Source of the DNA: Glycomyces buryatensis
GTDB taxonomy: Bacteria > Actinomycetota > Actinomycetes > Mycobacteriales > Micromonosporaceae
Direction: 5' to 3'
DNA: 64,000 nt
Assembly (NCBI RefSeq): GCF_004912275.1
Contig: NZ_STGY01000051.1
Location: 2,825 to 66,824 of the forward strand
How positions within the stretch are numbered: the first letter of the stretch is position 1; each line of letters begins with the position of its first letter. Position numbers and translations under genes: made by a program. Below the pieces are notes generated by a model that saw only the letters and a program-made list of their open reading frames with translations, ran no database searches and was not told the DNA's origin. This document shows, piece by piece, positions 24,920-54,358 of the stretch.

Positions 24920-24993
24920 CGCGGGATAGAGCAGCTCGGTAGCTCGCCAGGCTCATAACCTGGAGGTCGGTGGTTCAAATCCGCCTCCCGCTA
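24920..24993 (+). tRNA. Initiator tRNA-Met (CAT), integration target of the element
   Basis: A full cloverleaf folds: acceptor CGCGGGA with TCCCGC pairing and an unpaired C1-U72, the mismatch that marks bacterial initiators; D arm GAGC/GCTC; anticodon stem CCAGG/CCTGG with loop CTCATAA (anticodon CAT at 24,954-24,956); T arm GGTGG/CCGCC. CCA is not encoded. The three consecutive G-C pairs typical of initiators are reduced to two because pair 29-41 is A-U. The 3' part from base 31 is duplicated at 54,150, marking the attachment site. Confidence 0.93.
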
Positions 24994-24994
24994 C
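24951..24994 (+). repeat. attL: left copy of 44-bp direct repeat
   Basis: It starts at tRNA base 31 (gCTCATAACC...) and runs through the T arm to the acceptor end (...CCCGCTAC). It is identical to 54,150-54,193. The first flanking bases differ on both sides. Confidence 0.93.
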
Positions 24995-29192: not shown

Positions 29193-29590
29193 CTTCCGGT
29201 CTGCCGGTGGTACTCCTCTTTGATGAGGTGGGCTGCGATATGCCCGAGTAGGGCTGTCGGACCGTTGGAGCGGTGCCAGCGCGCTTCAGGTGGATCATAA
29301 GGGAACCACATGCAAAGGCTTCCGTCCCCATACCGGTGCGGCGAATCGGTGGGACCGTCGGCGAACACCTTCGGCTCCTCGGGCCTGCCGAGAGTGAAGA
29401 CAATCACGATGGCCCGCTGATCGACGCCGGTCGGTTCGATCCTCGTCGAGACCGCGAATCTGCCGCGGAACTCGCGGCGGGGCGCGGTGATTCGCGCTTC
29501 CGGGCAGTCCAGTTCGAGTGTTCGGAGGAATCGGAGGCGGTTCGCGGGGTCGACGAACCAAGGTGGTGGTTGTCGGGCGGGTCTTGCCAC
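29165..29590 (-). CDS. E2-like protein of CBASS
   Basis: 141 residues from GTG 29590, which overlaps the CD-NTase stop by one base behind GGGGAGG. The segment SPHRYGDGSLCMW places a conserved His (85) and the candidate catalytic Cys93 in the pattern of bacterial E2-like proteins (UBC fold, Cap2-related). No E1 or JAB-protease gene is present, so this is the short, E2-only form of type II CBASS, in which the E2 alone is thought to conjugate or prime the CD-NTase. The small size matches that subtype. Confidence 0.8.
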   Translation of the reverse strand: MARPARQPPPWFVDPANRLRFLRTLELDCPEARITAPRREFRGRFAVSTRIEPTGVDQRAIVIVFTLGRPEEPKVFADGPTDSPHRYGDGSLCMWFPYDPPEARWHRSNGPTALLGHIAAHLIKEEYHRQTGRWPGAEAAH

Positions 29591-30603
29591 TACGCCTCCC
29601 CGTAGGAGCGGGTCGGGGGGATCAGGACGGGTGAGCCGCTCACGCCGAGCGCGGGCGCCGGGATGGTGGTCCGGCGCGACAAGAGCGCTGCCGTCTCGGC
29701 GAGTTGCCGGGACTTCGGCGGGGTCACGTAGTGAGGGAAGACGGCGGCGAGCGCGCTTGCGACTTTGTCGGTGTCGCTGTCGTCGCTAAGCGCGTCCTGG
29801 AGTCCCTCAGCGGCTTTTCGGAGCCGAACCTGGACGGTGCCGGCGGGCATGAGCAGTTTGAGGTTCGCCGAGACCCCGACCGGGTCGGGCGTGGCCTGGT
29901 GCGCTTTGATCCGCTGCGCAGCCCCCTTGAATAGGGCCAGCAGGCCGTCCGCGACTCCCATGCCGGGCGTGACGAACTCGTACGCCCAGACCGAGAGCAT
30001 GAACGAGGAGACGCCCGGTTCGGTGTACTGCTTGTTCCAGGCTTTGGCGAGTCGGATGATCTTCCTGCGGATCGAGCGGTGCGAAGGCGTCCCGGAGTTC
30101 AGCAGCGCCACATGGCCTTCGGGGTGGGACGGTTCCCAAGTGCCCTTCTTGAGGTTGGGGATCCACAGGCCGCTGCCTTCGCGGCGGGTCAGCGCCACCA
30201 CCAGGTCGACGGTCGGGTCCTGGCCGTTGACCGGGGAACCGAACGTGAACTTGGGGCCGCGTTTGGAGATGCCGACCCTCGCGTTGGGGTAGGTCTCGCG
30301 GACCAGCGGCCCGATTTGCAAGCGCAGGGCGTCGACGATCTGCTGCGGGTTTTCGCCGCCGCCTTCGGGGCCGAGCCGCGGGAAGCAGCGCCGGTCGAGG
30401 ACCAGGCCGCCGTCGCCGTCGGTCACCGGGTGGTTCATTGTGTGTGCGGCGAGCGACCCGCTCGCGTACGTGCTCAGCGCGCCTTCGAATTCGAGCGCGG
30501 CCGTGCGCACGATGGCGAGGCGTAGCCGAACTTCCGCCAGGGGCTTGTCTTCTGCGTCGATCTGCTTGCGGATCGCTGCCAGCATGTCAGCCGTCTTTCC
30601 CAT
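29590..30603 (-). CDS. CD-NTase, cyclic oligonucleotide synthase of CBASS
   Basis: 337 residues from ATG 30603 behind a perfect AAGGAGG. The nucleotidyltransferase signature is present: Gly49-Ser50 (YASGSLA), Asp62 and Asp64 (TDGDGG) and a third acidic residue Asp133 (TVDLVV). The C-terminal helical lobe follows the cGAS/DncV plan. Such enzymes make a cyclic di- or trinucleotide during phage infection to trigger an effector. It is followed without gap by an E2 and a membrane protein. The C-terminus ends in a short tail (RSYGEA) that could be the E2 target, as in related systems. The exact nucleotide cannot be read from sequence. Confidence 0.85.
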   Translation of the reverse strand: MGKTADMLAAIRKQIDAEDKPLAEVRLRLAIVRTAALEFEGALSTYASGSLAAHTMNHPVTDGDGGLVLDRRCFPRLGPEGGGENPQQIVDALRLQIGPLVRETYPNARVGISKRGPKFTFGSPVNGQDPTVDLVVALTRREGSGLWIPNLKKGTWEPSHPEGHVALLNSGTPSHRSIRRKIIRLAKAWNKQYTEPGVSSFMLSVWAYEFVTPGMGVADGLLALFKGAAQRIKAHQATPDPVGVSANLKLLMPAGTVQVRLRKAAEGLQDALSDDSDTDKVASALAAVFPHYVTPPKSRQLAETAALLSRRTTIPAPALGVSGSPVLIPPTRSYGEA

Positions 30604-30687
30604 GCCGTCCTCCTTGGAACGTGGCGCCGGGACTATCCCGCCGTCACTCGGACTAACGGGACAGACGAGGATTCGTCCACAGCGGCA

Positions 30688-31731
30688 TCAGGAACAGCAG
30701 TCGACGCACAAGCCGAACCCGGTCGCGAACTGTGCAGGGTGCCTCAGTAGAAAGCACCCTGGGCAGATGCGTTCGGCGTCGCGGGTACAGCCGCAGTGCC
30801 CCTCTGGGCAGCGCGGTTCCCGGCATTGCCCGCACCAGTCGGCAGCGGTGAAGCAGGCGGTGCAGACACCGCACTCGGTCGACTCGTCGACGTCGTGGCT
30901 CTGGCGCTCCCGCGGCGGCGAGAAAGGGAGCCAGGGGGCGTCGAACTCGTACATCACGGCGAGCAGGAGTCCGTCGCACCACGCCGCCTGTCCGTAGAGC
31001 GGGGCCGAGTCCTGTCCGGTCGAGTACCGGATCAGCGCGTTACCGTGGCGGATGACCGCGGCGGACGACGTGTTCGTCAAGGAGGCCTTGACGAGTGGGT
31101 TCGCTCGCTGGTCGGAGCCGCGCGCGGGCGGGTAGATCCGGCCGTGGGCGGCTGCGAAGCTGACGGTTCCGGACTCCTCGATGACGGCGGCCACGCCTGG
31201 TCGCTGCATCGCGGCGGCCAGCCGGACGCAGATGGCCGCTCGGGAAGCCGAGGTGCGACTGTACAGCTCCAGCGCGGTCTCCACCGTGGCGCCGTGCTCC
31301 TCGATGACGGCTGACGCCAGCGGCTCGGGCAGGAGTACGGCGGCGGCGAACGCATCGCAGGCGGCGTCCTCGAACGTCTTGGAATCGTCGTGTTCGAGTG
31401 CGGCCTCGCCGAGGGTGAGGTCGTTCTGCTGGAGGTGGTGTCCCAGTTCGTGCAGGAGCGTGAAGCGCTGTCGTCTCGGCGACAGCGACTCGGCGACGAC
31501 CAATGCGGGTGGTGCGGTCCTGGTCGAGTACGCACCGCTGACGGAGCAGCTGCCTGCGGTGGTGCCTTCGAGTTCGGGCACGCGTTTGACGCGGATGCCC
31601 TCCCAGGAGGCGAGCTCGGTGAACGGGTCATCGGCGAGTCGTGCGGCGGCACCGGGTGCGACTTGGTCCAGGTGGTTCAGCATCGCACCGGCCTGGGCCT
31701 GGGCGGCATTGTGGATCGTGGGCATCCGCAT
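30688..31731 (-). CDS. ImmA/IrrE metallopeptidase with Cys-rich tail (CapP-like)
   Basis: 347 residues from ATG 31731 (ATG 31725 possible). The zinc-peptidase motif HELGH is at 94-98, with a downstream acidic ligand in FEDAACDAFAAAVLLP (about 120-135), the ImmA/IrrE pattern. The last ~65 residues hold about a dozen cysteines in CxxC-type pairs (CGVCTACF, CGQC, CPGC, CVDCC), probably zinc-binding. In known CBASS loci a peptidase of this family (CapP) cleaves the repressor CapH to turn on the operon. Here it lies 6 bp after an HTH gene and 84 bp before the CD-NTase, so the same logic is likely. Confidence 0.8.
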   Translation of the reverse strand: MRMPTIHNAAQAQAGAMLNHLDQVAPGAAARLADDPFTELASWEGIRVKRVPELEGTTAGSCSVSGAYSTRTAPPALVVAESLSPRRQRFTLLHELGHHLQQNDLTLGEAALEHDDSKTFEDAACDAFAAAVLLPEPLASAVIEEHGATVETALELYSRTSASRAAICVRLAAAMQRPGVAAVIEESGTVSFAAAHGRIYPPARGSDQRANPLVKASLTNTSSAAVIRHGNALIRYSTGQDSAPLYGQAAWCDGLLLAVMYEFDAPWLPFSPPRERQSHDVDESTECGVCTACFTAADWCGQCREPRCPEGHCGCTRDAERICPGCFLLRHPAQFATGFGLCVDCCS

Positions 31732-31737
31732 ACCGCT

Positions 31738-32700
31738 TCACCGCTCGGTCGGGTGTTCGTCGAGCCGGGCGAGCGAGAGCATCCTGACTCTGCCGCGCCA
31801 AACACTGTCTTCATCGCCTCGCTGCCTCGCGGCCAGCGCGTACGCCTCCCGGCCCAGCGTCTGCCGTGCAGCTCGCTCATCGGTGCCCGAAGCCGCGGCT
31901 TCGGCCTCGACGAGCCGGCGCCATCGGGGCTGCTCCAGTTCGGTCAGGAGTGAGGGTGGCAAGTCCGGTACGAACGGCTGGATCTCGGATTCGGGTATGC
32001 CGGTGGCGCTTGCGAGCCGTTCCAGCTCCTGAGGGTCGAGTGGTCGCTCCCGCCGCAGGATCGCCATGGCGGTCGCCTGCGGAACCCGGAGGATCGCGAT
32101 GACATCGGCGAGTCCGACGGGAAGCTTTGCGGTCACCGGTTCGACCGGTGTCTCCGAGTCCGGCAGCGGCTCCAGGCTCGACGCCCATTCCTCGAAGCGG
32201 TCCTCAATGGCCGCCTGCGCGGTGACGCTGGGGGAGTAGAGGTCGAAATCCGGTGTGCCCGGGCGTGCACCGAGATCGGGTGCGGATGTCGCGCCGTTCG
32301 CCGCGGCCAGCCTGAGGAAGCCGGTCAACGACTCGCCAAGTGTTCCCAGAGGACGGGCGAGTACCCGGACCGGTATGTCGCGGACCAGGCCGGTCCAGAC
32401 CGCCGTCGCCGTCTCCAGCGGTGAGACGCTCGGTGCCAAAACGACGGCGTCTCCGGTTTCGATGCCGGGTTCGATGGTGATTGGGGCGGCCGCCACGGTG
32501 CGCTGGTCACGGTGCACGTCGAGGACGATCAGCAGTTCGCTCGATGATTCCTGCCGTCCGATCCAGAGCTGACCGGGTGCGACGTCGAAGTCCGGGCTGT
32601 CGATGTCGTTGCGGGGGGAAGTGGTCCTGTATACCATTGGTGGCGCGGTCGTCTGCCGGGCCAGTTCGATCAGTTGCTGCCGTGCGCTTGCCGTCGTCAT
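31738..32700 (-). CDS. XRE-type HTH regulator, probable peptidase substrate (CapH-like)
   Basis: 320 residues from ATG 32700, whose ATGA overlaps the stop of the sigma-like gene. The N-terminal ~180 residues are beta-rich and unassigned (FDVAPGQLWIGRQ, PVRVLARPLG). An XRE-like helix-turn-helix reads LADVIAILRVPQATAMAIL at about 198-216, followed by LDPQELERLASATGIPESEI. It is followed closely by an ImmA/IrrE peptidase, the standard repressor-protease pairing. It is much longer than typical CapH, so the N-terminal domain may sense something or bind a partner. Confidence 0.6.
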   Translation of the reverse strand: MTTASARQQLIELARQTTAPPMVYRTTSPRNDIDSPDFDVAPGQLWIGRQESSSELLIVLDVHRDQRTVAAAPITIEPGIETGDAVVLAPSVSPLETATAVWTGLVRDIPVRVLARPLGTLGESLTGFLRLAAANGATSAPDLGARPGTPDFDLYSPSVTAQAAIEDRFEEWASSLEPLPDSETPVEPVTAKLPVGLADVIAILRVPQATAMAILRRERPLDPQELERLASATGIPESEIQPFVPDLPPSLLTELEQPRWRRLVEAEAAASGTDERAARQTLGREAYALAARQRGDEDSVWRGRVRMLSLARLDEHPTER

Positions 32701-33752
32701 CGCGCCTGCCTTTCTACCGGGTCTGACGGGACCGCGACCGGTCCGTCCAGGCTGCTTGCGGAGGAGCTGGAGGCTTCCCTGCACAGTTCGAGCAGCGGGC
32801 CGAGGGTGCCACGTGCTGCTGCGGCGTCGCCCGCCAGCTCCACGAGTTTGGCTTTGAGCTGCTTGATCTTCACCGCGGTGCTCGACCGCTTCTTGCCGAG
32901 GATCTTCGAGGCTTCGGCGGGATCGGTGATCGCCGGTACAAGCCGACGCTCGATCCCCGTCAGCGAGGCGTAGACGCGGTGGGCTTCCAGGGTGTTCCGG
33001 GCAGCTTCTTCGTCGGCGATAACTTGTTCTTCAGGAGTCGGTGCCGCTGAGGGGAAGTCATCGCCCGGTCCCAAGGGGAGGTGCTCGGGCCGGACTTGGA
33101 GGGGCAGCCGGGCCGCGACGACCGTCGTGACCTTCTCGTCGTCCAAGGAGCCCTTCGCGGCCTCGAACACTGCGATCAGCAGTGCCTCGATCTCGCCGGT
33201 CTTTCCCAGTCGCGGCTGCGACGTGCCGCTGCCATGCCGGCCCACGGGGGAAACGCGGCATTCGCGAGCGACTTGAATCAGGGAGTTCGGATCGGTTTTG
33301 GAGGCCGTTGACGGGCCGTCCGCGAGCTGCCAGAAGGACGTGCCCGGGACGCGCTTGAAGCGGGGGTCGCGTTCGAGTCTCTTGCGGAGCGTTTCCCGCA
33401 GGCGTCCTCGAGGGCCTTGTCTGGCCTTGTCGATCATCCGGTTGCGCAGGTACCGGCGCATCATGCGACCGACCGCGTTGTCGTCCTCCGCTCGGGCCAG
33501 GACGTCGGTGACCAGCGCTTTGCCAGATTTCCCGAAGAACTCCAGTGCGAAGTCCACGTGGTCCTTCGACTTGTCGCGCTGCAATTCGGGGAAGCGGTGC
33601 AGTTCGCTCTCCGCCAGCTTGAGCAGCAGTTCGAGCGCTTTGGGCCCGAACTGCCGCTGCGCGTGGAGCTCCTCCAACACTTCGTTCAAGGGCGCACCTT
33701 CTCCATCGAGGTCGTCTGGCCGTGAGATACCAAGGGACTGAAGCATAGTCAT
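32697..33752 (-). CDS. Sigma-factor-like protein, first gene of the CBASS operon
   Basis: About 351 residues from ATG 33752 (GTG 33755 and ATG 33746 also possible; no ribosome-binding site, so perhaps leaderless). A segment at about 90-112 (VGRMMRRYLRNRMIDKARQ) resembles sigma region 2, and about 265-310 (LTGIERRLVPAITDPAEASKILGKKRSSTAVKIKQLKAKL) resembles region 4 with its HTH. The middle and ends are unassigned. A dedicated sigma-like activator in front of a HTH-peptidase pair would give the operon two-layer control. Similarity is by eye only; a role other than sigma factor cannot be excluded. Confidence 0.5.
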   Translation of the reverse strand: MTMLQSLGISRPDDLDGEGAPLNEVLEELHAQRQFGPKALELLLKLAESELHRFPELQRDKSKDHVDFALEFFGKSGKALVTDVLARAEDDNAVGRMMRRYLRNRMIDKARQGPRGRLRETLRKRLERDPRFKRVPGTSFWQLADGPSTASKTDPNSLIQVARECRVSPVGRHGSGTSQPRLGKTGEIEALLIAVFEAAKGSLDDEKVTTVVAARLPLQVRPEHLPLGPGDDFPSAAPTPEEQVIADEEAARNTLEAHRVYASLTGIERRLVPAITDPAEASKILGKKRSSTAVKIKQLKAKLVELAGDAAAARGTLGPLLELCREASSSSASSLDGPVAVPSDPVERQAR

Positions 33753-33778
33753 CACGAGTGAAGAAGTGCTTCCAGGTA

Positions 33779-33946: not shown

Positions 33947-34477
33947 ATGAATCTCGGCCCATTCGGCGAGCCCGAAACCGTCTCGACCCTCTTCCGGTCC
34001 GTGCTCTCGATCACGGAGACGGTCCGCGACTTCATCGCCGGCCCGCTGCCTCTCGATCCCGAACCGGTGCAGGTGCTCGCCGCGCACCTCGACGGCGAGA
34101 TCGGTGAGCTCCTGGCTACTAGGGGAGACCTCGAACTGGCCGGAGACCGGCTCGCTGCGGTCCTCGACCACATCTCGCGAAGCTACGACCTCAACTCCGA
34201 GCTCACTCCGGCCGCGTACCCGAACCTCGTCTCGGACCTGCTGCTGATGCGCGACGTACTGGAGCAGGCGTTCGGCATCACCATCACGTTCGCGGGCGAG
34301 GCGGGCCGCGCGTCGTCGGGCACCCGGTTCAAGCAGGAATTCGACCGTATCGACGGCAAACTCGTCGGGCTCAAGGCAACCGGCACGAAACTTCCCGAGG
34401 TTGACATGGAGCAGCGCGGCCGGAGTATCGGCCCGGACGGCTCGGTCGTAGGCATCGAGTACGAGGAACGCCGGTGA
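33947..34477 (+). CDS. First gene of an unrecognised three-gene operon
   Basis: 176 residues from ATG 33947, chosen because AAGGAAGG lies seven bases upstream; the frame is open further upstream but looks non-coding there. The product is mainly helical (VSTLFRSVLSITETVRDFIAGPL, LLATRGDLELAGDRLAAVLDHISRSYDL, VSDLLLMRDVLEQAF) with a polar C-terminus. No motif is recognised. Its GTGA stop overlaps the next start, so the two proteins are made in step. Confidence 0.7.
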   Translation: MNLGPFGEPETVSTLFRSVLSITETVRDFIAGPLPLDPEPVQVLAAHLDGEIGELLATRGDLELAGDRLAAVLDHISRSYDLNSELTPAAYPNLVSDLLLMRDVLEQAFGITITFAGEAGRASSGTRFKQEFDRIDGKLVGLKATGTKLPEVDMEQRGRSIGPDGSVVGIEYEERR

Positions 34478-36885
34478 CTCCCAGGTGGAACCCGTTTCCT
34501 GAACGCCGCTACCGCTCTACACTACCTGAACAGGCAGCACCGATGACTTACGACCAGCCCGGCATTTCCCCGGACGACCAGCTCCGCATCCCGATCGCTC
34601 CGCTCGCAGCCGAATGGCCTCGCTCGAGCCCGCTTCCGCCCGCTGAATCGCAGCAGGACGTGGAGCATTATCTGCCTGATCGCATGGAGCAGCTGCGAAT
34701 CCCGCTATCCAGCCCAGTGGAAACATTGGAATCCCTAGTGGACGAACACCTCGAACCAGTCGCCTCCTCCGAAACCGAAAGCGTTGAAGAAGCCTCCGCA
34801 GCGGTGGACATCAACGTCGAACACAACGAAGGAAGCGTCACTGGCGTCGCGAACACCTTCAACACGGTGCGAGACCTCGGCGTCATCGAACTCGACGAGA
34901 AGGCGATCCGCGACCGGGTCAAGAACGACTTCGTCGCGCCGAACGGCTTCGGCGAACTGCTCCAGGACGTCGCAGCCGCCACGCGCAGCCTCATGGTCCT
35001 CGCAGCGGACGCCGATCACGGGCGGGACCTGACCGCCGAGGCGCTGCTCTGCGCTCGGGAGGACCTGGAGTTCAAAGGCATCGGCGCGATGTCGAAGACC
35101 GACCTGACCGGCGACCGCCTCGCCTGGTCGCCGGAAACCGCATGGCTGGTCGACCTGACCGATGCGGATGGGTTCCGGGCCGACGCCGGCACGTACCTGC
35201 GCAGACTCGAAGCGCTCGCCCCGGCCCTCGTCAGGCAGCATTCTGTCCTGATCGCGGTCGTGCCCCGGTTCGAGGTGCCCGATGACCTCGTCAAGACCTT
35301 CTCCTTCGTCATCGACCTCCACGCCGACGCCCTCCGCTTGGACCGGTCAGCGCTGGTGTGCAAACGCCTCGACAGTCACCCGCCGGCCGTCGGGAATCCG
35401 TCGGGCTGGGAAGCGTTCACAGCCGCGCAGAGGCTCCTCGACGACCTGCCCCCGGCCGAGGCCGTCCGCTTTGCCGAGGTCGTGCGTGAAGTCAGCGAGT
35501 CCTGGATCAGGCTGACCGAGCCCGAGCGCGCGGCGCACCGGGAGAAGTACCGCGAGAACCCGCTCTTTGCGAAGGACGCCGAGAACCCCATCGGTGAAGA
35601 CGAATGGGTCGTACGGCAACTCGTGCTGGAAGGCTTCAAGTCCTGGGACGACGTGCTCACCGACTGGAACACGGCGAACGAGGGCGATGCCGAACTCGCC
35701 GCGTTCCAGATCGCCGCCGCGGTCCTGGCGACCGAACCAGTCGACGAGGTGATCGATGAGAGCAGGCTGCTGCGAGATCCCGATTACAAGGAATCGACCG
35801 AACTGCGCCCCTTCGAAGGACGGGGCGCCCGCTTGCTCACCAAGCGGGCGATGGCCCGCATCGTCGACGACCGGGTCGAGTTCGACCTTCCGGGACTCGA
35901 CGACGCCGTGCTCTGGTACTACTGGCAGGACCGCCGGAAGGAGCGCCCGCAGTTCGTGAGGTGGATGGTCGGCTGTCTGAGCCGACGAGCCGACCGGCCT
36001 GAAGCCGCCGCGTCGCTTGAGAAGCGCATCGGCGACTTCGCCATCCAACTGGCATCGCAGCACCGCGACCGGTCCGTGCTTTCCAGCACGATCGAGACGC
36101 TCTCCGCGGATCCGGCGACGGCGAAGGCCGCGGTTCGGCTGCTGCTTCGTGCTGCGCAGCACGAGAATGTCGGCCGTGAAGTCCGCACCGAGATGCTCAC
36201 CTGGGCGAGTAGCAAGAGCACCGAGCTGGGCCTCCGTGAAGCCGTCGCTACGGTATGCGGTGACGAGGCATTCATGTCTGCCTATCCCAATCACGCCCTG
36301 GTCCGTATCAGGCACCTGGTCGCGCATGACGACATGGCTGAGAGTGAAGCGCTCCTCCAGGCCTGCGCCATGCTCACGCGAGACCCGAAGCACGCCAACG
36401 CACTCATCAGCGACCTCGCGAAGCAGATTGAATCCCCGTCGAAGAGTATCGTTGACCGCAATCTGCGATTCTTCCTGGAGACGGCACGCGTCATCGACGA
36501 GGAGATCGGCATCCCGGCGCTGCAGCAGCACGGGCTCGCCTCCCCTGAGCACCTGCATCACACCGCGAAACTCTGGGGCTCGGCACTGCGTTACCGCAAG
36601 CCGAAGGACTTCGGCGCGACGATCCAGCTGTGGCTCGACGGGGCGGTCCGCACCTCCGGCGCCGACGACCTAACCGAGATGCTGCGGCGATCGATCATCG
36701 CGACCGAGGCCGACTGGAGGACCGCACCCCGCAACCTCATCATCGCAGTGGACAACTGGGAAGAGCAGACCGAAGCCGACCCGGTTCAAGCGAAGCGACT
36801 CGCCGAGCAGCTCACGGCGATGTCCGATGACTTCTTCAATTTGGACACGAAGACAGATACCCGCAGCAACGATGCGAATGATTGA
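34474..36885 (+). CDS. Large protein with degenerate P-loop NTPase-like domain, core of unknown operon
   Basis: 803 residues from GTG 34474 (ATG 34543 possible). After a low-complexity acidic N-terminus (about 1-125) a segment at about 145-300 follows the layout of a STAND/AAA-like domain: a hydrophobic strand then ADADHGRDLTAEALL where a Walker A GxxGxGK(T/S) would be, TAWLVDLTD in the Walker B place, and SVLIAVVPRF as a later strand. The P-loop Lys is absent, so ATP hydrolysis is unlikely. The remaining ~450 residues are helical, HEAT/TPR-like repeats (AKAAVRLLLRAAQHENVGREVRTEM). It has no recognised effector domain. The overlap with the upstream gene and near-overlap with the downstream gene argue for a complex. 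Confidence 0.7.
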   Translation: MTPRWNPFPERRYRSTLPEQAAPMTYDQPGISPDDQLRIPIAPLAAEWPRSSPLPPAESQQDVEHYLPDRMEQLRIPLSSPVETLESLVDEHLEPVASSETESVEEASAAVDINVEHNEGSVTGVANTFNTVRDLGVIELDEKAIRDRVKNDFVAPNGFGELLQDVAAATRSLMVLAADADHGRDLTAEALLCAREDLEFKGIGAMSKTDLTGDRLAWSPETAWLVDLTDADGFRADAGTYLRRLEALAPALVRQHSVLIAVVPRFEVPDDLVKTFSFVIDLHADALRLDRSALVCKRLDSHPPAVGNPSGWEAFTAAQRLLDDLPPAEAVRFAEVVREVSESWIRLTEPERAAHREKYRENPLFAKDAENPIGEDEWVVRQLVLEGFKSWDDVLTDWNTANEGDAELAAFQIAAAVLATEPVDEVIDESRLLRDPDYKESTELRPFEGRGARLLTKRAMARIVDDRVEFDLPGLDDAVLWYYWQDRRKERPQFVRWMVGCLSRRADRPEAAASLEKRIGDFAIQLASQHRDRSVLSSTIETLSADPATAKAAVRLLLRAAQHENVGREVRTEMLTWASSKSTELGLREAVATVCGDEAFMSAYPNHALVRIRHLVAHDDMAESEALLQACAMLTRDPKHANALISDLAKQIESPSKSIVDRNLRFFLETARVIDEEIGIPALQQHGLASPEHLHHTAKLWGSALRYRKPKDFGATIQLWLDGAVRTSGADDLTEMLRRSIIATEADWRTAPRNLIIAVDNWEEQTEADPVQAKRLAEQLTAMSDDFFNLDTKTDTRSNDAND

Positions 36886-37645
36886 GAACAGATCGGAGAA
36901 TAGGTCAGAACCGCCTGCGCCGCTTCGCAAACGCGAGCATGTACTGCCCCCGCTCCGGCTGCAACTGCTCAGCGTCGACACGGACCTGCGGTTCGACAGT
37001 GAAATCACCATCACGATTCGACGCCCCCGCAGGGTCCGGCTCGAGCAGGCGCGGGCCATGGCCTACGGACACGTCCAGGCGCTGGCCGACAAGGCCTCCT
37101 CCGGCTTTCCACTCGACAGGCCGGATGCCGCCAGGATCGCAGTCGAAGCTGCGGTCGCCCGGAGGACGGGTGTTGTGCGGGGCCTCCTCGTCAGGAGCAT
37201 CACGGCGACCATCCATTCGGACGGCGATGGCCTCAGGAAGACCGCCGATCACGTCGCGCTCCGTGCCGCCCGTGATCTCGCGGGCAGCACGGCAGTTGCC
37301 GAAGTCATACGTGCTGAGCTCTTTCACCGCCAGGTCTTCAGCGATCCGGGTAGGCTCGCGTCCCATCTCCTGCTGGCCCGGCCCGACATCGGCACTCGCA
37401 GGGTCGCTGAGGAGGTGGTCGAGCTCATCCGCGCGGTCGAGGGGATGCGACCGGACGCGCCCTCGATCCGGATCGCAGAGGTTCTCTACGAGTTCGTGAG
37501 AGACCGACCCGACGGCGAAAAGCACGACCTCCTGGAGGCGGTGGCCGCAATCGCGATCGGTTTCGATGGAGGCACCGCTGCGAAACTTCGGAAACTCGCG
37601 GAGCAGTTCGCAAGCCCTCCCGAACGGATGCAACAGAGCTGGTAG
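36872..37645 (+). CDS. Third gene of the unrecognised operon
   Basis: 257 residues from ATG 36872 (ATG 36878 possible), overlapping the previous gene by 14 bp. A beta-rich N-terminal half (LQLLSVDTDLRFDSEITITIRRP) precedes alternating charged helices (RVRLEQARAMAYGHVQALAD, VAEVIRAELFHRQVFSDPGRLASHLLL). There is no membrane segment and no catalytic motif. The alternation of a short strand block and long charged helix is faintly like SPFH-type scaffold proteins, but this is only an impression. Function unknown. Confidence 0.65.
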   Translation: MRMIENRSENRSEPPAPLRKREHVLPPLRLQLLSVDTDLRFDSEITITIRRPRRVRLEQARAMAYGHVQALADKASSGFPLDRPDAARIAVEAAVARRTGVVRGLLVRSITATIHSDGDGLRKTADHVALRAARDLAGSTAVAEVIRAELFHRQVFSDPGRLASHLLLARPDIGTRRVAEEVVELIRAVEGMRPDAPSIRIAEVLYEFVRDRPDGEKHDLLEAVAAIAIGFDGGTAAKLRKLAEQFASPPERMQQSW

Positions 37646-37961: not shown

Positions 37962-39029
37962 ATGTATGCCGTGATCGACCTGGAGACGACGGGGCTGTAC
38001 AACAAGGACCGGGTCATCGAGGTCGCGATCGCCCAGCTCGACGCGGCAGGTCGCGTCACCGCGACCTGGGAGACGTTGGTCAATCCCGAACGGGACCTCG
38101 GGCTGCAGGACCGCCACGGCATCCGCGCGGCCGAAGTACTGTCTGCCCCCACGTTTGACCGGAACGCCGGCGACATCGCTTCCATGATGCTCGGACGCGT
38201 GCCGGTGGTCCACAACATCGCATTCGACTCGCGCATGCTCGCAAGCGAGTTTCAGCGCCTGGACCTCCAGATCCCCGACCTGGCCGCGTACGGTGTCTGC
38301 ACCATGTCGTGGGCCGGACACTTCCTGCCCGGTGCCGGTCGCGGCCTGGAAGCATGTTGCGCGGCGTACGGCATTGAGAACGACCACCCCCACCACGCAC
38401 TCTCCGACGTCATGGCCACCGCCGAGCTCTTCGAGCGCTACCTTCGCGACGCCGGTCCGGTCCCGCCATGGGCGGCGCTGTCGGCCTTCGCGCAAGTTGC
38501 TACCTGGCCGGCCTTGGAGACCGGACGTGCCGAGTCGGTGCACCGCGGCAACGGTGAAACCTCCAAGTCGTTCCTATCACGGATGGTCGACCGCCTACCC
38601 GTCGTTCCCGACCCGCCGCAGGCCGACATGTACCTCGCGCAGCTTGATCGGGCCCTGGTCGACCGCCACATCAGCGCTACCGAAGGTGAGGAGCTGCTGC
38701 GCATCGCTGCCGATATGGGCATTGACCGCACCACCGCCACCGAACTCCACCGCGGCTACCTCGCGGCACTCGCTGTCGCCGCGCTGGAGGACGGTGTGGT
38801 CAACGAGGCTGAGTGCGCCGACCTCGAACAGGTCGCTGCGCTCCTGGAACTCGGAGCAGAGGCCGTCGACGCCGCACTGCGTGCTGCAGCAGCCGGCACG
38901 GGCCCGACCCCACAGCGCGCGCCTTCGCACTCAGAAGGGGCGACATCTTGGTCCTCACAGGCACGTTCACCGAGACCAAGGACTACTGGCGCCAGCGCTT
39001 CGAGCAGGCCGGACTCCAGGTCGCCGTGA
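37962..39029 (+). CDS. DnaQ-like DEDDh exonuclease, C-terminal part frameshifted
   Basis: 355 residues from ATG 37962. The DEDDh nuclease motifs are complete: Asp6 and Glu8 (DLETTG), Asp89 (HNIAFDSRML) and His144 with Asp149 (HHALSDVMAT). A helical TerB-like segment follows at about 215-310 (LVDRHISATEGEELLRIAADMGI, VAALEDGVVNEAECADLEQV). After about residue 315 the frame turns into a low-complexity tail, while a BRCT domain continues in the -1 frame to 39,166. Homologous actinobacterial proteins, as I know them, are single exonuclease-TerB-BRCT chains, so this copy has a frameshift near 38,900-38,920, or the base call is wrong there. Confidence 0.75.
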   Translation: MYAVIDLETTGLYNKDRVIEVAIAQLDAAGRVTATWETLVNPERDLGLQDRHGIRAAEVLSAPTFDRNAGDIASMMLGRVPVVHNIAFDSRMLASEFQRLDLQIPDLAAYGVCTMSWAGHFLPGAGRGLEACCAAYGIENDHPHHALSDVMATAELFERYLRDAGPVPPWAALSAFAQVATWPALETGRAESVHRGNGETSKSFLSRMVDRLPVVPDPPQADMYLAQLDRALVDRHISATEGEELLRIAADMGIDRTTATELHRGYLAALAVAALEDGVVNEAECADLEQVAALLELGAEAVDAALRAAAAGTGPTPQRAPSHSEGATSWSSQARSPRPRTTGASASSRPDSRSP

Positions 39030-39166
39030 CCGTCACCAAGAAGACCGCGCTGGTCTGCGCCGCGGACGCCGACTCGATGTCGGGCAAGGCGAAGAAGGCC
39101 CGTCAATACGGCATCCCAGTCGTCGGCGTCGAAGCCTTCGACCTGGTCCTCGCCCGAATGGCTTGA
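38906..39166 (+). pseudogene. BRCT-domain tail of the exonuclease, displaced to another frame
   Basis: In the frame one base back from the exonuclease, FALRRGDILVLTGTFTETKD to VGVEAFDLVLARMA reads as a good BRCT domain (strand, GTF turn, VTKKTALVCAADAD, KARQYGIPVV). It has no plausible start of its own. One added or lost base would join it to the upstream gene. No obvious slippery heptamer is present at the junction, so programmed frameshifting is not favoured. Confidence 0.65.
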
Positions 39167-46311: not shown

Positions 46312-47945
46312 ACCGACCCATCGACAGTCCAGGATGGATGCGGATCCTGACCAGCGCCCGCGCCGGCATTGAACGCGGCAGCCGCACCATCTCGATCAGC
46401 GACCCGACCGAAACCGAACGCCGCCTCCTGATCGGCGTCACCGGCAAACACCGTGACACCGATGTTGCCCGCATCCGCGTCGCACTCGCCGACCTCGATG
46501 CCTACTTCACCGTCGCACACGGCATGGACCTGACCGAGACCATCACGTCGGTCACCGGAGCAGCGCCCCGCGATCGACGTGCCGAAGCGGAAATCCGGCA
46601 AATCGCCGTCGCCGTGATCCGAACCGCCGCCGAGCGAAGCCGACACCACGGCAGCCTCTGGTATGACGCCTGGCTCGACAAGCTCACCACTAGCGGCGGC
46701 CTTACCCGACTCGTCACCGAAGGCAGGAACCTGACCGACATCTGCACGGCACTCGACGCCCTGCCCGCCGATGATGAACCGCTCCCCGCGTTCGCCGAAC
46801 GCGTCCTCGGTGACACGAAAGCACTCGCGAATGGACGAACCCGGTCGCTCCTCATGAGCGCGTTGGCCGCCTGGAGTGGCATGACCCCGCCGCGAGGAGC
46901 TGAAGCCGAACGGGATCTCCTCGAATGGGCCGGCGTCGTGCCCGACGACCTTGCGAGCCAAGTCCTCGTCCTCAACGTGCCCGCCGAAGGGGGACTGGTA
47001 GGGCGGTGGCTGACTGAAGCGGCCGCAGTCGGCATCCCGATGCGCATCACCCTGCATCAACTGCGACTCGCGCCCCTTGTCGTTGATGCTCGGGAACTGT
47101 TCGTCACCGAGAACCCCGCCATCCTGCGAGAAGCCGCCCGTGCCCTCGGTCCGGACTGCCCGCCCCTGATCTGCACCGAAGGATTCCCCTCCGCCGCCGC
47201 ACACCGGCTCCTCGCCGCCGGCGACACAGCGAATATCCACTGGCGTAACGACTTCGACTGGACCGGACTGCGAATCTGCGCCACGGCATTGCAGCGCTAT
47301 CCGAGGGCCACTCCATGGCGCATGAGCGCCGGCGACTATCGAGAGACGGAAGCGGGAATCGAGCTGAACGGCAGCGAAGCCGCCTGCCCCTGGGACGACG
47401 AACTCACCGACGCGATGCGAACCCGAGGCCGCGCTGTCATGGAGGAACGCCTCATGCCGAGGCTACTGGCCGATCTGGCGGACCGAGCAGCGTTACGTCT
47501 GCTCGATGTCGTCCTCCGAATCACCCCAGCTTGTGAACTCGAAGAGTTCAAACTCGCGGACTATCGGCCGAGCCGCCTGGTGAAAGCGGAGCCCGTCCGA
47601 TTCAGCGGTACCGTGCGGCGGCACTTCGATGAGCCAGTCGAGGACCGCATCTGTCAAGTTGTCGGGGTCGGCGGCGGCGTCGATGAACGACTCCGCTCCT
47701 TGCTCATCGAACGGGGACGGCAGTGGGATTCCCGCAGTTTGCGCGTCGAGGATGACCCGCCGACAGATCCCAGTCCACCGCCCCTGCCCCCACCACCGGT
47801 CGGAGTAGCTCGTCGCGCCGCCGACGCTGAAGAGCCGCATGGTCGCTTCGGGACCGAGTACTTCCTCATCGAGCCGCCTCCAGGACCGGACCTGGTCGCG
47901 GACCGTTCGCTTTACTTCATTCCAGCCGTCACCGAACAAGGCTGA
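46308..47945 (+). CDS. jetD: Wadjet JetD (toprim-like nuclease), unusually long 3' end
   Basis: 545 residues from GTG 46308, overlapping the jetC stop. The DUF2399/TIGR02679 core is clear, with the segment HWRNDFDWTGLRI (Trp312-Asp317) and TEGFPSAAAHRLL. JetD cleaves DNA once the complex stalls on a small circle. The family pattern ends near residue 395-400 (MPRLLADLA, about 47,490). The last ~150 residues (Pro-rich, PPLPPPP) do not look like the family and are antisense to the convergent gene, so the native stop has probably been lost or replaced by a junction. Confidence 0.85.
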   Translation: MNRPIDSPGWMRILTSARAGIERGSRTISISDPTETERRLLIGVTGKHRDTDVARIRVALADLDAYFTVAHGMDLTETITSVTGAAPRDRRAEAEIRQIAVAVIRTAAERSRHHGSLWYDAWLDKLTTSGGLTRLVTEGRNLTDICTALDALPADDEPLPAFAERVLGDTKALANGRTRSLLMSALAAWSGMTPPRGAEAERDLLEWAGVVPDDLASQVLVLNVPAEGGLVGRWLTEAAAVGIPMRITLHQLRLAPLVVDARELFVTENPAILREAARALGPDCPPLICTEGFPSAAAHRLLAAGDTANIHWRNDFDWTGLRICATALQRYPRATPWRMSAGDYRETEAGIELNGSEAACPWDDELTDAMRTRGRAVMEERLMPRLLADLADRAALRLLDVVLRITPACELEEFKLADYRPSRLVKAEPVRFSGTVRRHFDEPVEDRICQVVGVGGGVDERLRSLLIERGRQWDSRSLRVEDDPPTDPSPPPLPPPPVGVARRAADAEEPHGRFGTEYFLIEPPPGPDLVADRSLYFIPAVTEQG

Positions 47946-49052
47946 AATCCTGCGCCCGTCTGCAAGCTGCCAGGTCTCACTTGTCAGGGCCTGTTCCACT
48001 GCTTCCCAGTCGACGCCCTCATACGGGTCGATGAGATCCTGCACCGCCTTAGTGGCTGCGATGTTCACGCGGGCCATGAGGACGTCCGAGGGTAGATGAT
48101 GCGCCTCGACAGCGGTGTTATTGCGCCAGCACCATGTGGCTATCCCGAGCGCTACGGCGCTGGGAACCAGGTCCGGCACCACTCCGTGGCCGGCGGTGAA
48201 GCAGGCCAACCCCAGGTACGGCTTCAGGGATGCGTCGTCGAGGATCGTTTCGATCGGCAGTCCGCTCGACCGCTGCGCCGAAGCGAACACGAATTCGCTA
48301 TAGAGCTGGCCGAGGAGTTTCTCGGTGCTCACGTCGCTGGTCTCAGCGGCTTTGAGTCGTGTGGGGTCGAGCAGCCCGTGCGCTCCTGCGATCGCTTCGA
48401 CCTCGGCACGGCCCTCGCCGCCGGGGCTGGGGTGGATCTCGAGTACATCGTCAAGCATGTCGAGGTCAGAATCGAAGCTGACGGCTTCATCGGGTCCCAG
48501 CGTCAGGCGGTTGCCGTTGACTTCGTACCCGACAGTGATGACCATGTTCGTGCGGGTGAGAAACCCGAACAGGAAGGGCCCGTGCTCGAAATCGAAATCG
48601 CTGTCGTAGGACTCCGGGATCTCCCACCCCGCCCATGCCAGGGGTGACAGCAGGTCGGCCAGCCTGTCGACGTAGGAGCCCCAGTCCTCGTCGCTGGGGC
48701 CTTCCTTCCAACGCATGACCGCGATCGCCGCCCGCACACCCGCCTGAAACGACGCACTGTGCTGGGGTCGCTCCAGCAGGTCTCTGATCCGGCGCTCCGC
48801 TTCGTCGAGGCCCTCCTGAAGGCTATGCTCGCGGAACTTCTCGATCGAGCGGTCCACCTTCCAGGAGGCGTGAGCGACATGATCTTCGGGCTCACCGTTC
48901 GCCACCCGCTGATCCAAGGTCCGGAGTTCATCGATGAGTTCGGCCTTACGCAGGTACAAGTTTCGGACGGGGCGTTTCTCGGCAATCTGACGCAGTCGAG
49001 CCAAGGACATCTGCTCGTAGGCGTCGGGGGTGTCGGCCATGCCGGCCATCAT
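47493..49052 (-). CDS. Uncharacterised protein, convergent with jetD
   Basis: 519 residues from ATG 49052 (ATG 49049 and 49040 nearby). A short N-terminal segment (LARLRQIAEKRPVRNLYLRKAELIDELR) looks like a SAP/Rho-N-type nucleic-acid-binding helix pair. The rest alternates acidic helices and aromatic-rich strands (GPFLFGFLTRTNMVITVGYEVNG, ALFGDGWNEVKRTVRDQVRSW). No catalytic motif is recognised. It starts 52 bp after the end of the upstream same-strand gene, so they probably form an operon. Its 3' end overlaps the jetD extension by 453 bp. Confidence 0.65.
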   Translation of the reverse strand: MMAGMADTPDAYEQMSLARLRQIAEKRPVRNLYLRKAELIDELRTLDQRVANGEPEDHVAHASWKVDRSIEKFREHSLQEGLDEAERRIRDLLERPQHSASFQAGVRAAIAVMRWKEGPSDEDWGSYVDRLADLLSPLAWAGWEIPESYDSDFDFEHGPFLFGFLTRTNMVITVGYEVNGNRLTLGPDEAVSFDSDLDMLDDVLEIHPSPGGEGRAEVEAIAGAHGLLDPTRLKAAETSDVSTEKLLGQLYSEFVFASAQRSSGLPIETILDDASLKPYLGLACFTAGHGVVPDLVPSAVALGIATWCWRNNTAVEAHHLPSDVLMARVNIAATKAVQDLIDPYEGVDWEAVEQALTSETWQLADGRRISALFGDGWNEVKRTVRDQVRSWRRLDEEVLGPEATMRLFSVGGATSYSDRWWGQGRWTGICRRVILDAQTAGIPLPSPFDEQGAESFIDAAADPDNLTDAVLDWLIEVPPHGTAESDGLRFHQAARPIVREFELFEFTSWGDSEDDIEQT

Positions 49053-49104
49053 AACCAATTGTGGACTCACAGCTCCGGTGTGCATGGTGGGCCGATTTGG
49101 ACGT

Positions 49105-50517
49105 TCATCTCCGGCCGTAACTGCTTTCGGGACCGTAAGGGCTCCAACGGCCCAGGAACGGTTTGAGATCCTCGGCTTTGAACTCTGGAGCAGTCGGCAT
49201 TGCCGGCAGTGTTCGGAGCGGATCGGTCGAATCGGCAAAGGTGCGGGCCCATGCCAGCCACTGCCGTGCAGCATCGTTGTCGGGGTGGTCGGCCTCCTCT
49301 TCTTGGAGTCGCTCCTCAAGTAGGTCGCAATACGCTGTGAGCCTCTTGAAGCGTTCGAACGCTTGAGATTGCTGCTCGAGCGCGGAAGCGTAGTGGTGCT
49401 CCAGGGCTTGAACCTTCGCATTGGCCATGACCGTCTCCCACTGACGCTGCCGCTCGACCTTGGCCTTCTCCGCGGCGATAGCGCTTCTGCGGTCCCCTGC
49501 AGCGCTCTTGGCGAGCCCATCCATGACTTCGGGTAGGCGATCCTCCAACGTCATCGTCTTGCGGTCGGCCCATTTGTGCTGGCCGTAACTGGAGTACGGC
49601 AATTCGAGCTTCAGGTTCTTGGCCTTGATCGGGTTCTCGGATTGGGGGAACTCCTGATCGATCGTGACCGCGTAGGTGAATCCGTCGATCCCAACCTGGA
49701 CCGCTCCCTCTCTGCGGTCATACCTGCGGCGGCTTCCGGAGCCGTAGTGGTGGCGCTGGTCGACCGGTTGGTCGCGGACCTTCCACCCACGATCGTGGGC
49801 GGCCGAGGCGATCGCCTGAAAGATCAGCAGACTGCGACGACGGAGATCCTTGGGCATGGTCAGGCGATCGACGTCATCACGGAGGCGGGCCACGACCGGG
49901 TGGGGGCGCTGCAATCGTTCCGGAACGGGTACCGGCTCGAGTCCTTGGGCGTGTTTGCGGGCGGCATTGGGGTGGACGGCGGCGATCAGTCTGATGGTCG
50001 CACTGGTGTCGGCGCTGCCGATGAATTCGATGTGGTGGCCTTCCGGCACGAGACCGTTGCGCTTGGCGTGGTCGACGGTCTTGCGCCATCGGGCGAACTC
50101 GGATTCGCTCAAGGCGGGAAGGCGGACGGTGCGCTCCGAGGACAGGCGATTGATCAGCCCGATGGCGTCCGCGCGACGGTCCCGGGGGATCTCCGTGGGG
50201 ATCTCACGGGTCTTGCGGGGCTTTACGGCCTTCCCGGGAGAGGGAACGGTGCGAGCCTCCTCCGTCGTTCGCCCCGAGTCCTTCGAGGTCCGGCGAGCGT
50301 CAGGATGGTAGCCGTGCTCGAGGTAGAAACGCCCGTCGGCGGTGATCGTCGCTCGCCACTGCCCAGTGCTTTTGCTGATGGACACCAGGCCACGCGACTC
50401 CAACGCCCGCGCGGTGATCCGCAGAGGTTCCCGCTCGGTGCTGCTGAGGTCGTCTCCAGAGCCCACGAGTTGCAGGGCCTCGAGTTGGCGGTCGTTCAGT
50501 GGGCCGGTGCGTTCCAT
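49105..50517 (-). CDS. Uncharacterised protein with N-terminal winged-helix-like domain
   Basis: 470 residues from ATG 50517. The first ~75 residues (LNDRQLEALQLVG, ITARALESRGLVSISKSTGQW, TITADGRFYLEHG) read as a winged helix. The middle has a beta-rich block (VQVGIDGFTYAVTIDQEFP), and about 345-430 is a charged coiled-coil-like stretch (AIAAEKAKVERQRQWETV, LLEERLQEEEADHP). Similar proteins occur in actinobacterial mobile elements but I know no function. It is divergent from the DUF4143 gene with a 158-bp gap. Confidence 0.65.
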   Translation of the reverse strand: MERTGPLNDRQLEALQLVGSGDDLSSTEREPLRITARALESRGLVSISKSTGQWRATITADGRFYLEHGYHPDARRTSKDSGRTTEEARTVPSPGKAVKPRKTREIPTEIPRDRRADAIGLINRLSSERTVRLPALSESEFARWRKTVDHAKRNGLVPEGHHIEFIGSADTSATIRLIAAVHPNAARKHAQGLEPVPVPERLQRPHPVVARLRDDVDRLTMPKDLRRRSLLIFQAIASAAHDRGWKVRDQPVDQRHHYGSGSRRRYDRREGAVQVGIDGFTYAVTIDQEFPQSENPIKAKNLKLELPYSSYGQHKWADRKTMTLEDRLPEVMDGLAKSAAGDRRSAIAAEKAKVERQRQWETVMANAKVQALEHHYASALEQQSQAFERFKRLTAYCDLLEERLQEEEADHPDNDAARQWLAWARTFADSTDPLRTLPAMPTAPEFKAEDLKPFLGRWSPYGPESSYGRR

Positions 50518-52025: not shown

Positions 52026-52507
52026 TCAGCGCTTGTAGAAGAAGTTGCCGAGCCGCGCACGGTCCTTGGCGGGGATCACGAGCCTCGGATGGCCCTCGAT
52101 ACGGATCTGGCCCGTCATCAGGGACAGGTCGAGATCCCACTCGTACTTCCGGCGCCATGCGAAGCGCAACTCGGCATTTTCTAGTGAGAGCCGGATTTCG
52201 ACATCGTTCCAACAGTTGACCGCACGCAGATGCCGGAGCACCAGCGGCAGTTCACCGAGAGCATGCCACTGGTTTCGCGGACCGGGATGAGAACCCGATC
52301 CCAATCGGCTTTCGAGAGGATGCCGCGCAGGTTCGAGCCCCAGACGATCTCCCGCAACAGGTCCGGGTAGATCAGGCCCGGCCTGATCGGCAGCACCTCG
52401 ATGAACGCGGGATTGGGAGAATCGACCTGCTGCTTTGCATGCGGGTATGCGTTGTTTTCCGGTGCGGCCCCGGAGCCGGGCCTCCTTCGTTTGAAGGGCC
52501 ACATCAC
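52026..52507 (-). pseudogene. Frameshifted small gene after the integrase
   Basis: The N-terminal half (MMWPFKRRRPGSG to LIPVRETSG, from 52,507) and the C-terminal half (HALGELPLVLRHLR to ARLGNFFYKR, ending at 52,026) lie in different minus-strand frames and join near 52,265. Together they would make a protein of about 160 residues. The start overlaps the integrase stop, so it was once translationally coupled to it. The family is not recognised. A sequencing error is possible. Confidence 0.6.
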
Positions 52508-54149: not shown

Positions 54150-54193
54150 GCTCATAACCTGGAGGTCGGTGGTTCAAATCCGCCTCCCGCTAC
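54150..54193 (+). repeat. attR: right copy of 44-bp direct repeat
   Basis: Identical to 24,951-24,994. It is the displaced 3' fragment of the initiator tRNA gene and has no 5' half, so it is not a tRNA gene. Confidence 0.93.
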
Positions 54194-54210: not shown

Positions 54211-54246
54211 AACCCGATTTCCTCAATTGAGGGAGTCGGGTTTTTT
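54211..54246 (+). terminator. Original terminator of the initiator tRNA gene
   Basis: ACCCGA...TTCCTCAAT pairs with the following ATTGAGGGA...TCGGGT, then TTTTTT. It lies just after attR, so it is the chromosomal terminator separated from its tRNA by the insertion. Confidence 0.8.
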
Positions 54247-54358
54247 CGTGCCTATCGCCCATTCATTGTTCGGACGTGAGACGCCGGCTTTCGTCGGCGC
54301 CTCGGCCCATGGTCCCGGCTCATGGTCTTGCCAGGTTCGATTGGGGCCGGTATGGTGA

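Follow-up and report, generated by a model that had tools for sequence, protein, structure and literature searches.

An unnamed operon family of Actinomycetes combines a STAND-like protein with an eroded P-loop, a predicted SPFH protein and interchangeable effector candidates

We report that a 64,000-nucleotide stretch of Glycomyces buryatensis DNA (contig NZ_STGY01000051.1, positions 2,825 to 66,824; hereafter the window, meaning this whole stretch) carries a real three-gene operon, a member of a large family of Actinomycetes operons that has no name in the libraries used. Gene 1 (33947..34477, + strand) encodes a helical protein of 176 amino acids (aa) that stands in the position of a Bell protein and is an effector or adaptor candidate; gene 2 (34474..36885, +), which has a GTG start, encodes an 803-aa pseudo-STAND protein; and gene 3 (36872..37645, +) encodes a 257-aa protein with a predicted SPFH fold and a helical tail. 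Comparison of family members identifies an operon-specific motif that recurs at the gene 1 C-terminus and the gene 2 N-terminus; the domain encoded by gene 1 can be helical, TIR-like or cyclase-like. On balance, we favor the reading that the operon is a three-part signaling module acting in the manner of an NLR-effector amyloid signalosome, with cell death or dormancy as the likely outcome. Such an SPFH-scaffolded, motif-templated effector system would probably be immune.

The operon, its family and its protein folds

The preliminary description of this DNA had proposed three overlapping genes, and all three are intact on the + strand. The overlap of genes 1 and 2 is 4 bp long (GTGA) and that of genes 2 and 3 is 8 or 14 bp; gene 2 has an alternative in-frame ATG at 34543 and gene 3 an alternative ATG at 36878 that would give 255 aa. 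The operon had also been called unrecognized, and so it proved: none of the three genes comes close to a curated cut-off in either Pfam or NCBIfam, and PADLOC matches none of them at all. The Pfam hits were at chance level, TPR_12 for gene 1 (0.08) and HMG_box_2 for gene 2 (0.13), and NCBIfam gave none. Among the papers listed for the terms searched in the open-licence PMC library, none has this composition.

With the window gene 2 protein (P0002) as query, 30 of 250 genomes of the taxonomic family gave a relative (E<=1e-3). In the genus Glycomyces 11 of 22 genomes have one, and a relative of 850 aa is encoded in Glycomyces arizonensis. A profile (A1, E<=1e-9) extended the search to the order, with relatives in 83 of 397 genomes, and to the class, with 62 of 394; these counts all include the window's own genome. 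When 396 genomes were sampled across the phylum, 36 reached 1e-3, the weaker matches mostly covering the P-loop region alone, and 8 reached 1e-9, of which seven belong to the class and one, G527, does not. A gene 2 profile that has the window among its rows matches the window protein at 4.9e-162, and the window's closest relative is 24% identical. Single-sequence searches with the same protein found no match in phages or in the PDB, and exact peptide patterns found none in viral contigs; plasmids gave a single weak match, in an unannotated stretch. The window's own genome carries a second operon of the family, of the cyclase type (L181, G000:C68).

Relatives were compared as a set of 92 gene 2 open reading frames (ORFs): the window, L031-L061 and L148-L207. 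With profiles built without the tested loci, and with close relatives of some loci present in the training folds, gene 3 outscored every other ORF of its locus in 85 of 88 loci (E<1e-3). Three loci failed (L051, L182, L207), and four were not entered, one with no candidate (L176) and three with poor ones (L055, L177, L196). The window gene 3 scored 1.8e-18 against a profile built without the window. Homologues recur in the same order as in the window more than chance would have it. They are therefore not scattered, whereas scattered homologues are what the preliminary description had named as speaking against its own proposal.

Gene 2 was modeled as an AAA+-like NTPase fold followed by a winged helix and repeats, the layout of a STAND protein. 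The AAA+/STAND-like core spans residues 141-390 (34894..35643, +), and the C-terminal part (35827..36873, +) holds, by the secondary structure of the model, a winged-helix-like segment at ~452-486 and helical repeats at ~488-800. At the sequence level gene 2 departs from the STAND Walker patterns: residues 178-188 (35005..35037, +) read ADADHGRDLTA, and the window has HGRDLT and LVDLT for the Walker A consensus GxxxxGK[ST] and the Walker B consensus hhhhD[DE], with the lysine, G178 and G181 lost and the second Walker B acid absent. Pfam found no NACHT or NB-ARC match in gene 2, which sets it apart from NLRs with a working P-loop. The description of gene 2 as a STAND-like protein that ends in helical repeats and has lost its Walker A lysine is borne out by residue reading, model and structure comparison alike. 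The lysine loss is not particular to this protein, as had seemed the case from the window: it extends to 87 of the 92 relatives (kept in 5/92, with arginine in its place in 65/92) and is therefore a family trait rather than a peculiarity of the window protein. The model and sequence together describe gene 2 as a predicted STAND/AAA+-like fold with an eroded P-loop, that is, an inactive STAND core.

Avs/AVAST proteins are STAND immune receptors. Gene 2 resembles them in its predicted STAND fold and helical repeats, and an AVAST5 chain ranked second when its model was compared by VIA; the top Foldseek rows are mostly ARM/HEAT proteins. It differs from Avs in its eroded P-loop, in having no recognized fused effector domain, and in its company, a separate effector gene and an SPFH partner.

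Gene 3, described earlier as strand-plus-helix, has that architecture in its model, which refines it to a predicted SPFH fold of the stomatin, prohibitin and vault type. Structure prediction of single proteins, which the preliminary description had called for, thus gave AAA+/STAND-like and SPFH-like folds for genes 2 and 3. The SPFH-like domain covers residues 20-117 (36929..37222, +). Gene 3 shares this predicted fold with SPFH/Band 7 proteins (stomatin, prohibitin, HflK/C, vault MVP), as well as a transmembrane (TM)-like N-terminus in some relatives, and differs from them in lacking a Pfam Band_7 match, in having no TM segment in the window copy, and in its operon context. When 11 relatives were searched for Band_7, the sole match was in L180 (E 0.05, 14.1 bits against a cut-off of 23.6). 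We also observed that the TM-like N-terminus of gene 3 accompanies a TIR-like gene 1 (11/13) and never a helical one (0/18), a link that may be explained by shared descent.

A motif common to genes 1 and 2, and the exchange of gene 1

We compared the last 50 residues of gene 1 with the 35-110 residues before the gene 2 P-loop, a segment picked after sight of the first 31 loci, and used control segments of the same lengths. In 28 operons (the first 31 loci less L031, L032 and L051, which have no clear gene 1), cognate pairs reached a summed score of 1592 against 797±58 for shuffled pairings, none of 20000 of which did as well. The result extends to 73 non-redundant operons, obtained by dropping six loci without a clear gene 1 and then removing a further 13 as near-duplicates (50% gene 2 identity): the mean score was 55.1 against 26.8 when shuffled (z 29.5, 0/10000), and in 30 of the 73 operons the cognate partner ranked first. 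For seven control segment pairs z lay between -1.5 and 1.1, and pairing persisted within each gene 1 label taken alone (z 6.2 to 13.5). The motifs are short, glycine-rich and terminal, and they differ widely between operons. The possibility that gene order is kept merely through co-transcribed housekeeping genes, and that the motifs are alike through a recent common insert and not because of function, is disfavored and very improbable: nothing specific speaks for it, the motif pairs are operon-specific in a set with <50% gene 2 identity, and gene 1 domains are swapped while pairing persists.

In operons of the window type, a 25-member alignment of gene 1 has a hydrophobic N-terminal stretch and two C-terminal repeats, r1 (residues 124-149; 34316..34393, +) and r2 (residues 150-176; 34394..34474, +), which carry the motif in common with gene 2. 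Profiles of r1 and r2 from the 25 operons align with a score of 16.0 (probability 46%). When gene 2 was tiled into 75 blocks, the four that overlap residues 110-127 ranked first to fourth for both repeats, scoring 17.0, 16.7, 16.6 and 11.2 with r1 (next 7.6) and 14.5, 14.3, 14.1 and 14.0 with r2 (next 9.6, from a block reaching residue 119, then 8.5). We place the putative gene 2 copy, r0, at residues 111-125 (34804..34848, +; VDINVEHNEGSVTGV). For the window itself, the candidate motif pair is seen at the level of profile comparison only.

Gene 1 was typed by pattern, length and eye, with Pfam run on a few of each type. Some 51 of the 92 loci have a cyclase-like gene 1 (33 by pattern and 18 by eye), to which a doubtful case, L186, may be added; 18 are helical, the window included; and 15 are TIR-like (14 by pattern, one by eye). 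The remaining loci comprise one of another kind (L180), three with no gene 1 (L031, L032, L184) and three that are unclear. TIR_2 scored above its curated cut-off in all three TIR-type proteins tested. The cyclase-like profile matches the class III cyclase Ma1120 at 1.2e-4, and all 22 of its rows keep an invariant D and GDG. Among the 18 helical types the hydropathy maximum, which bears on the question of a Bell domain, ranges from 0.1 to 1.6, and a PDB profile search with gene 1 returned four weak unrelated matches.

In a quick gene 2 tree of 70 rows, built without three unclear rows and without 19 labeled 'other', of which 18 look cyclase-like by eye, the gene 1 type changes nine times where the least possible is three, with switches for example at L177/L178 (support 93) and L186/L187 (support 99). 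These nine changes indicate that effectors have been exchanged.

A Crp-like cyclic-nucleotide-binding regulator lies directly upstream of gene 1 in both cyclase-type loci tested, L037 and L038. Similar ORFs, candidates for such a regulator, lie upstream of gene 1 in L042 and L046.

Known systems, a proposed mechanism and its alternatives

The operon has principles in common with both BASS pairs and iSTAND/EAD systems; its composition is itself unnamed. Passages of PMC7889193 and PMC8086366 describe BASS as a like-with-like motif at the C-terminus of an effector and the N-terminus of a receptor, in filamentous bacteria and with small helical or TIR effectors. The operon family resembles this layout in its overlapping or adjacent effector and receptor genes, in the same short motif at the corresponding termini, in its small helical or TIR effectors and in its filamentous actinobacterial hosts; the likeness of the motif is one of layout as described, rather than of comparison with the BASS1-10 motifs, and holds for the family as a whole. 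Window-type operons further recall HET-s, for which parts of PMC8086366 describe two motif copies, r1 and r2, on the effector and one, r0, on the receptor: here too, gene 1 has two repeats and gene 2 one. The family differs from BASS in a receptor with an eroded P-loop and no NACHT or NB-ARC match, in the SPFH gene that follows and in its cyclase-like effectors.

As far as passages of PMC7159879 and PMC8195603 describe them, the iSTAND and iSTAND2 MoxR-vWA ternary systems share with the operon an inactive STAND core, to which we liken gene 2 by description, modular TIR or cyclase domains, and a matching element on both receptor and effector. In the same passages iSTAND is reported as almost absent from actinobacteria, where iSTAND2 does occur. 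The window operon differs in having an SPFH protein instead of MoxR and vWA: a Pfam scan of 14 neighboring window ORFs, made for the window operon only, found neither. The operon thus lacks a defining feature of each known kind, the working NLR P-loop of BASS and the MoxR-vWA genes of the iSTAND systems. The preliminary description knew of no system of this composition; none is indeed named in the libraries, yet the principle is known from BASS amyloid pairs, because genes 1 and 2 share a motif in BASS fashion and gene 1 is swapped for TIR-like or cyclase-like domains in relatives.

We propose that gene 2 is a receptor whose C-terminal helical repeats would sense a trigger. Its STAND/AAA+ core would probably assemble without ATP hydrolysis, because the catalytic P-loop residues are lost, and the gene 3 protein would provide a scaffold in the form of a ring or cage, anchored to the membrane in some relatives and offering an alternative means of gathering a receptor that would not be expected to run a hydrolysis switch; SPFH-type proteins form rings and cages in the structures matched in this analysis. 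The gathered gene 2 N-termini would present r0 and nucleate a like-with-like beta stack that recruits gene 1 through its two C-terminal repeats, r1 and r2. Clustering would then activate the N-terminal domain of gene 1, which is helical and possibly membrane-acting here and TIR-like or cyclase-like in relatives, with cell death or dormancy against phages or other invaders as the likely outcome. Composition, gene order, motif sharing, predicted folds and effector exchange were computed; we infer the trigger, the scaffold role and the outcome, as well as, by analogy, amyloid formation and the defense role.

Several results weigh against this proposal. None of the 11 cyclase-like gene 1 proteins tested passed a Pfam cut-off (one had Guanylate_cyc at 0.18), and the two nearest relatives of the window, L031 and L032, have no visible gene 1. 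The VIA Z score of gene 2 is middling (9.9), and its best Foldseek E value, 1.2e-3, is to repeat proteins. The window's own motif pair scores 25, which is not significant, and ranks 15 of 73, and 5 and 10 of 28 in the smaller set. Hidden Markov models of r1 and r2 did not find r0 significantly in single gene 2 sequences, which is why profiles were compared with profiles; there, hhalign probabilities are low not only for r1-r2 but also for r1-r0 (<=49%) and r2-r0 (<=20%), so that the ranking of blocks, not any single score, counts for the window motif. The low-confidence gene 2 model has helices rather than strands around r0, and an RHIM-like core occurs in just 3 of 73 gene 1 tails and 6 of 73 gene 2 segments. 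Pfam Band_7 does not match the window gene 3, a PDB profile search with gene 3 returned two weak unrelated matches and no SPFH protein, and just 27 of 85 relatives have a TM-like N-terminus (the 92 loci less L176, L051, L055, L177, L182, L196 and L207), the window copy having no TM segment.

The genomic setting weighs on both sides. The preliminary description inferred defense from neighboring systems, and the window copy does lie on a mobile element with CBASS and Wadjet (see below); a role in defense is not thereby established. Among genes flanking 23 named relatives, at most 13 of 111, and probably ~5, match PADLOC at 1e-15, the matches falling in 13 families of one member each, which places the number between ~5 and 13 genes, counted without a control set. 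This set leaves out L236, the near-duplicate loci L217, L218, L225, L228 and L235, and 6 of 117 genes. Beyond the window, linkage to defense islands is weak, and a general enrichment is not supported.

It is possible, if on the doubtful side, that the motif is a homotypic docking or beta-arch oligomerization element that acts without amyloid templating, in EAD-like manner, and recruits gene 1 stoichiometrically, an alternative compatible with the rest of our proposal. It draws support from the wide variation of the motifs among operons, from motif sharing being what was computed and fibrils what was inferred, and from the EAD logic that a passage of PMC8195603 describes for iSTAND systems. Amyloid templating is favored by the short, glycine-rich and terminal character of the motifs in the layout of BASS pairs (as outlined in part of PMC7889193) and by the RHIM-like core in L054, L056 and L061.

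The cyclase-like effectors and the upstream Crp-like regulator may leave a non-immune signaling role open. The operon would then be a membrane-stress or second-messenger module in which the SPFH protein and the receptor-like protein watch the envelope and gene 1 sends a cyclic-AMP-type signal to transcription. We consider this unlikely. The large share of cyclase-like gene 1 proteins (~51/92), the regulator at both loci tested, the predicted SPFH fold and the position of most relatives away from known defense genes are in its favor; the 15 TIR-like and 18 short helical gene 1 proteins, the mobile element with CBASS and Wadjet, and a patchy presence in the genus that fits conflict systems argue against it.

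We suggest as a tentative but quite conceivable generalization a new class of signalosomes, widespread in Actinomycetes, whose NLR-like receptor has given up the ATP switch for SPFH ring or cage assembly and whose operon-private homotypic motifs pass the signal to interchangeable effectors. If true, this would give bacterial innate immunity or cell-death signaling a further, large and unnamed family, link SPFH scaffolds (relatives of vault, prohibitin and stomatin) to NLR-like receptors, provide many natural matched and mismatched motif pairs for testing the specificity of homotypic, amyloid-type signaling, and make it testable whether a receptor works with an eroded P-loop.

The integrated element and neighboring genes

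The operon is enclosed in a 29.2-kb integrated element bounded by a 44-bp perfect direct repeat, whose left copy, attL, is the 3' end of a tRNA-Met gene (24951..24994, +) and whose right copy, attR, repeats that end (54150..54193, +). A tyrosine integrase lies next to the right repeat at 52504-53985. In G011, a relative, the same tRNA is followed after 8 bases by a 39-bp stretch that resembles window positions 54212-54250 (87%, E 1.7e-5), which lie 18 bases behind the right repeat; this match behind the same tRNA suggests that the G011 locus is an empty integration site of the element.

Its cargo includes a CBASS cyclase, a CapP-like M78 protease, Wadjet JetA, JetB and JetC, and two PADLOC candidate defense genes, PDC-S48 (an exonuclease) and PDC-S01. 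Two adjacent ORFs of the element (47493-50517, -; 519 and 470 aa) have no Pfam or PADLOC match. The CBASS cyclase and the CapP-like protease belong to a block on the - strand (29590-33755) in which two unrecognized ORFs (31738-32784 and 32697-33755) lie upstream on the same strand. PDC-S48, an exonuclease with a BRCT part, occupies two overlapping frames (37962-39029 and 38948-39166) that jointly match a single model of 411 positions; the gene seems to be split, whether through a genuine frameshift or an assembly error.

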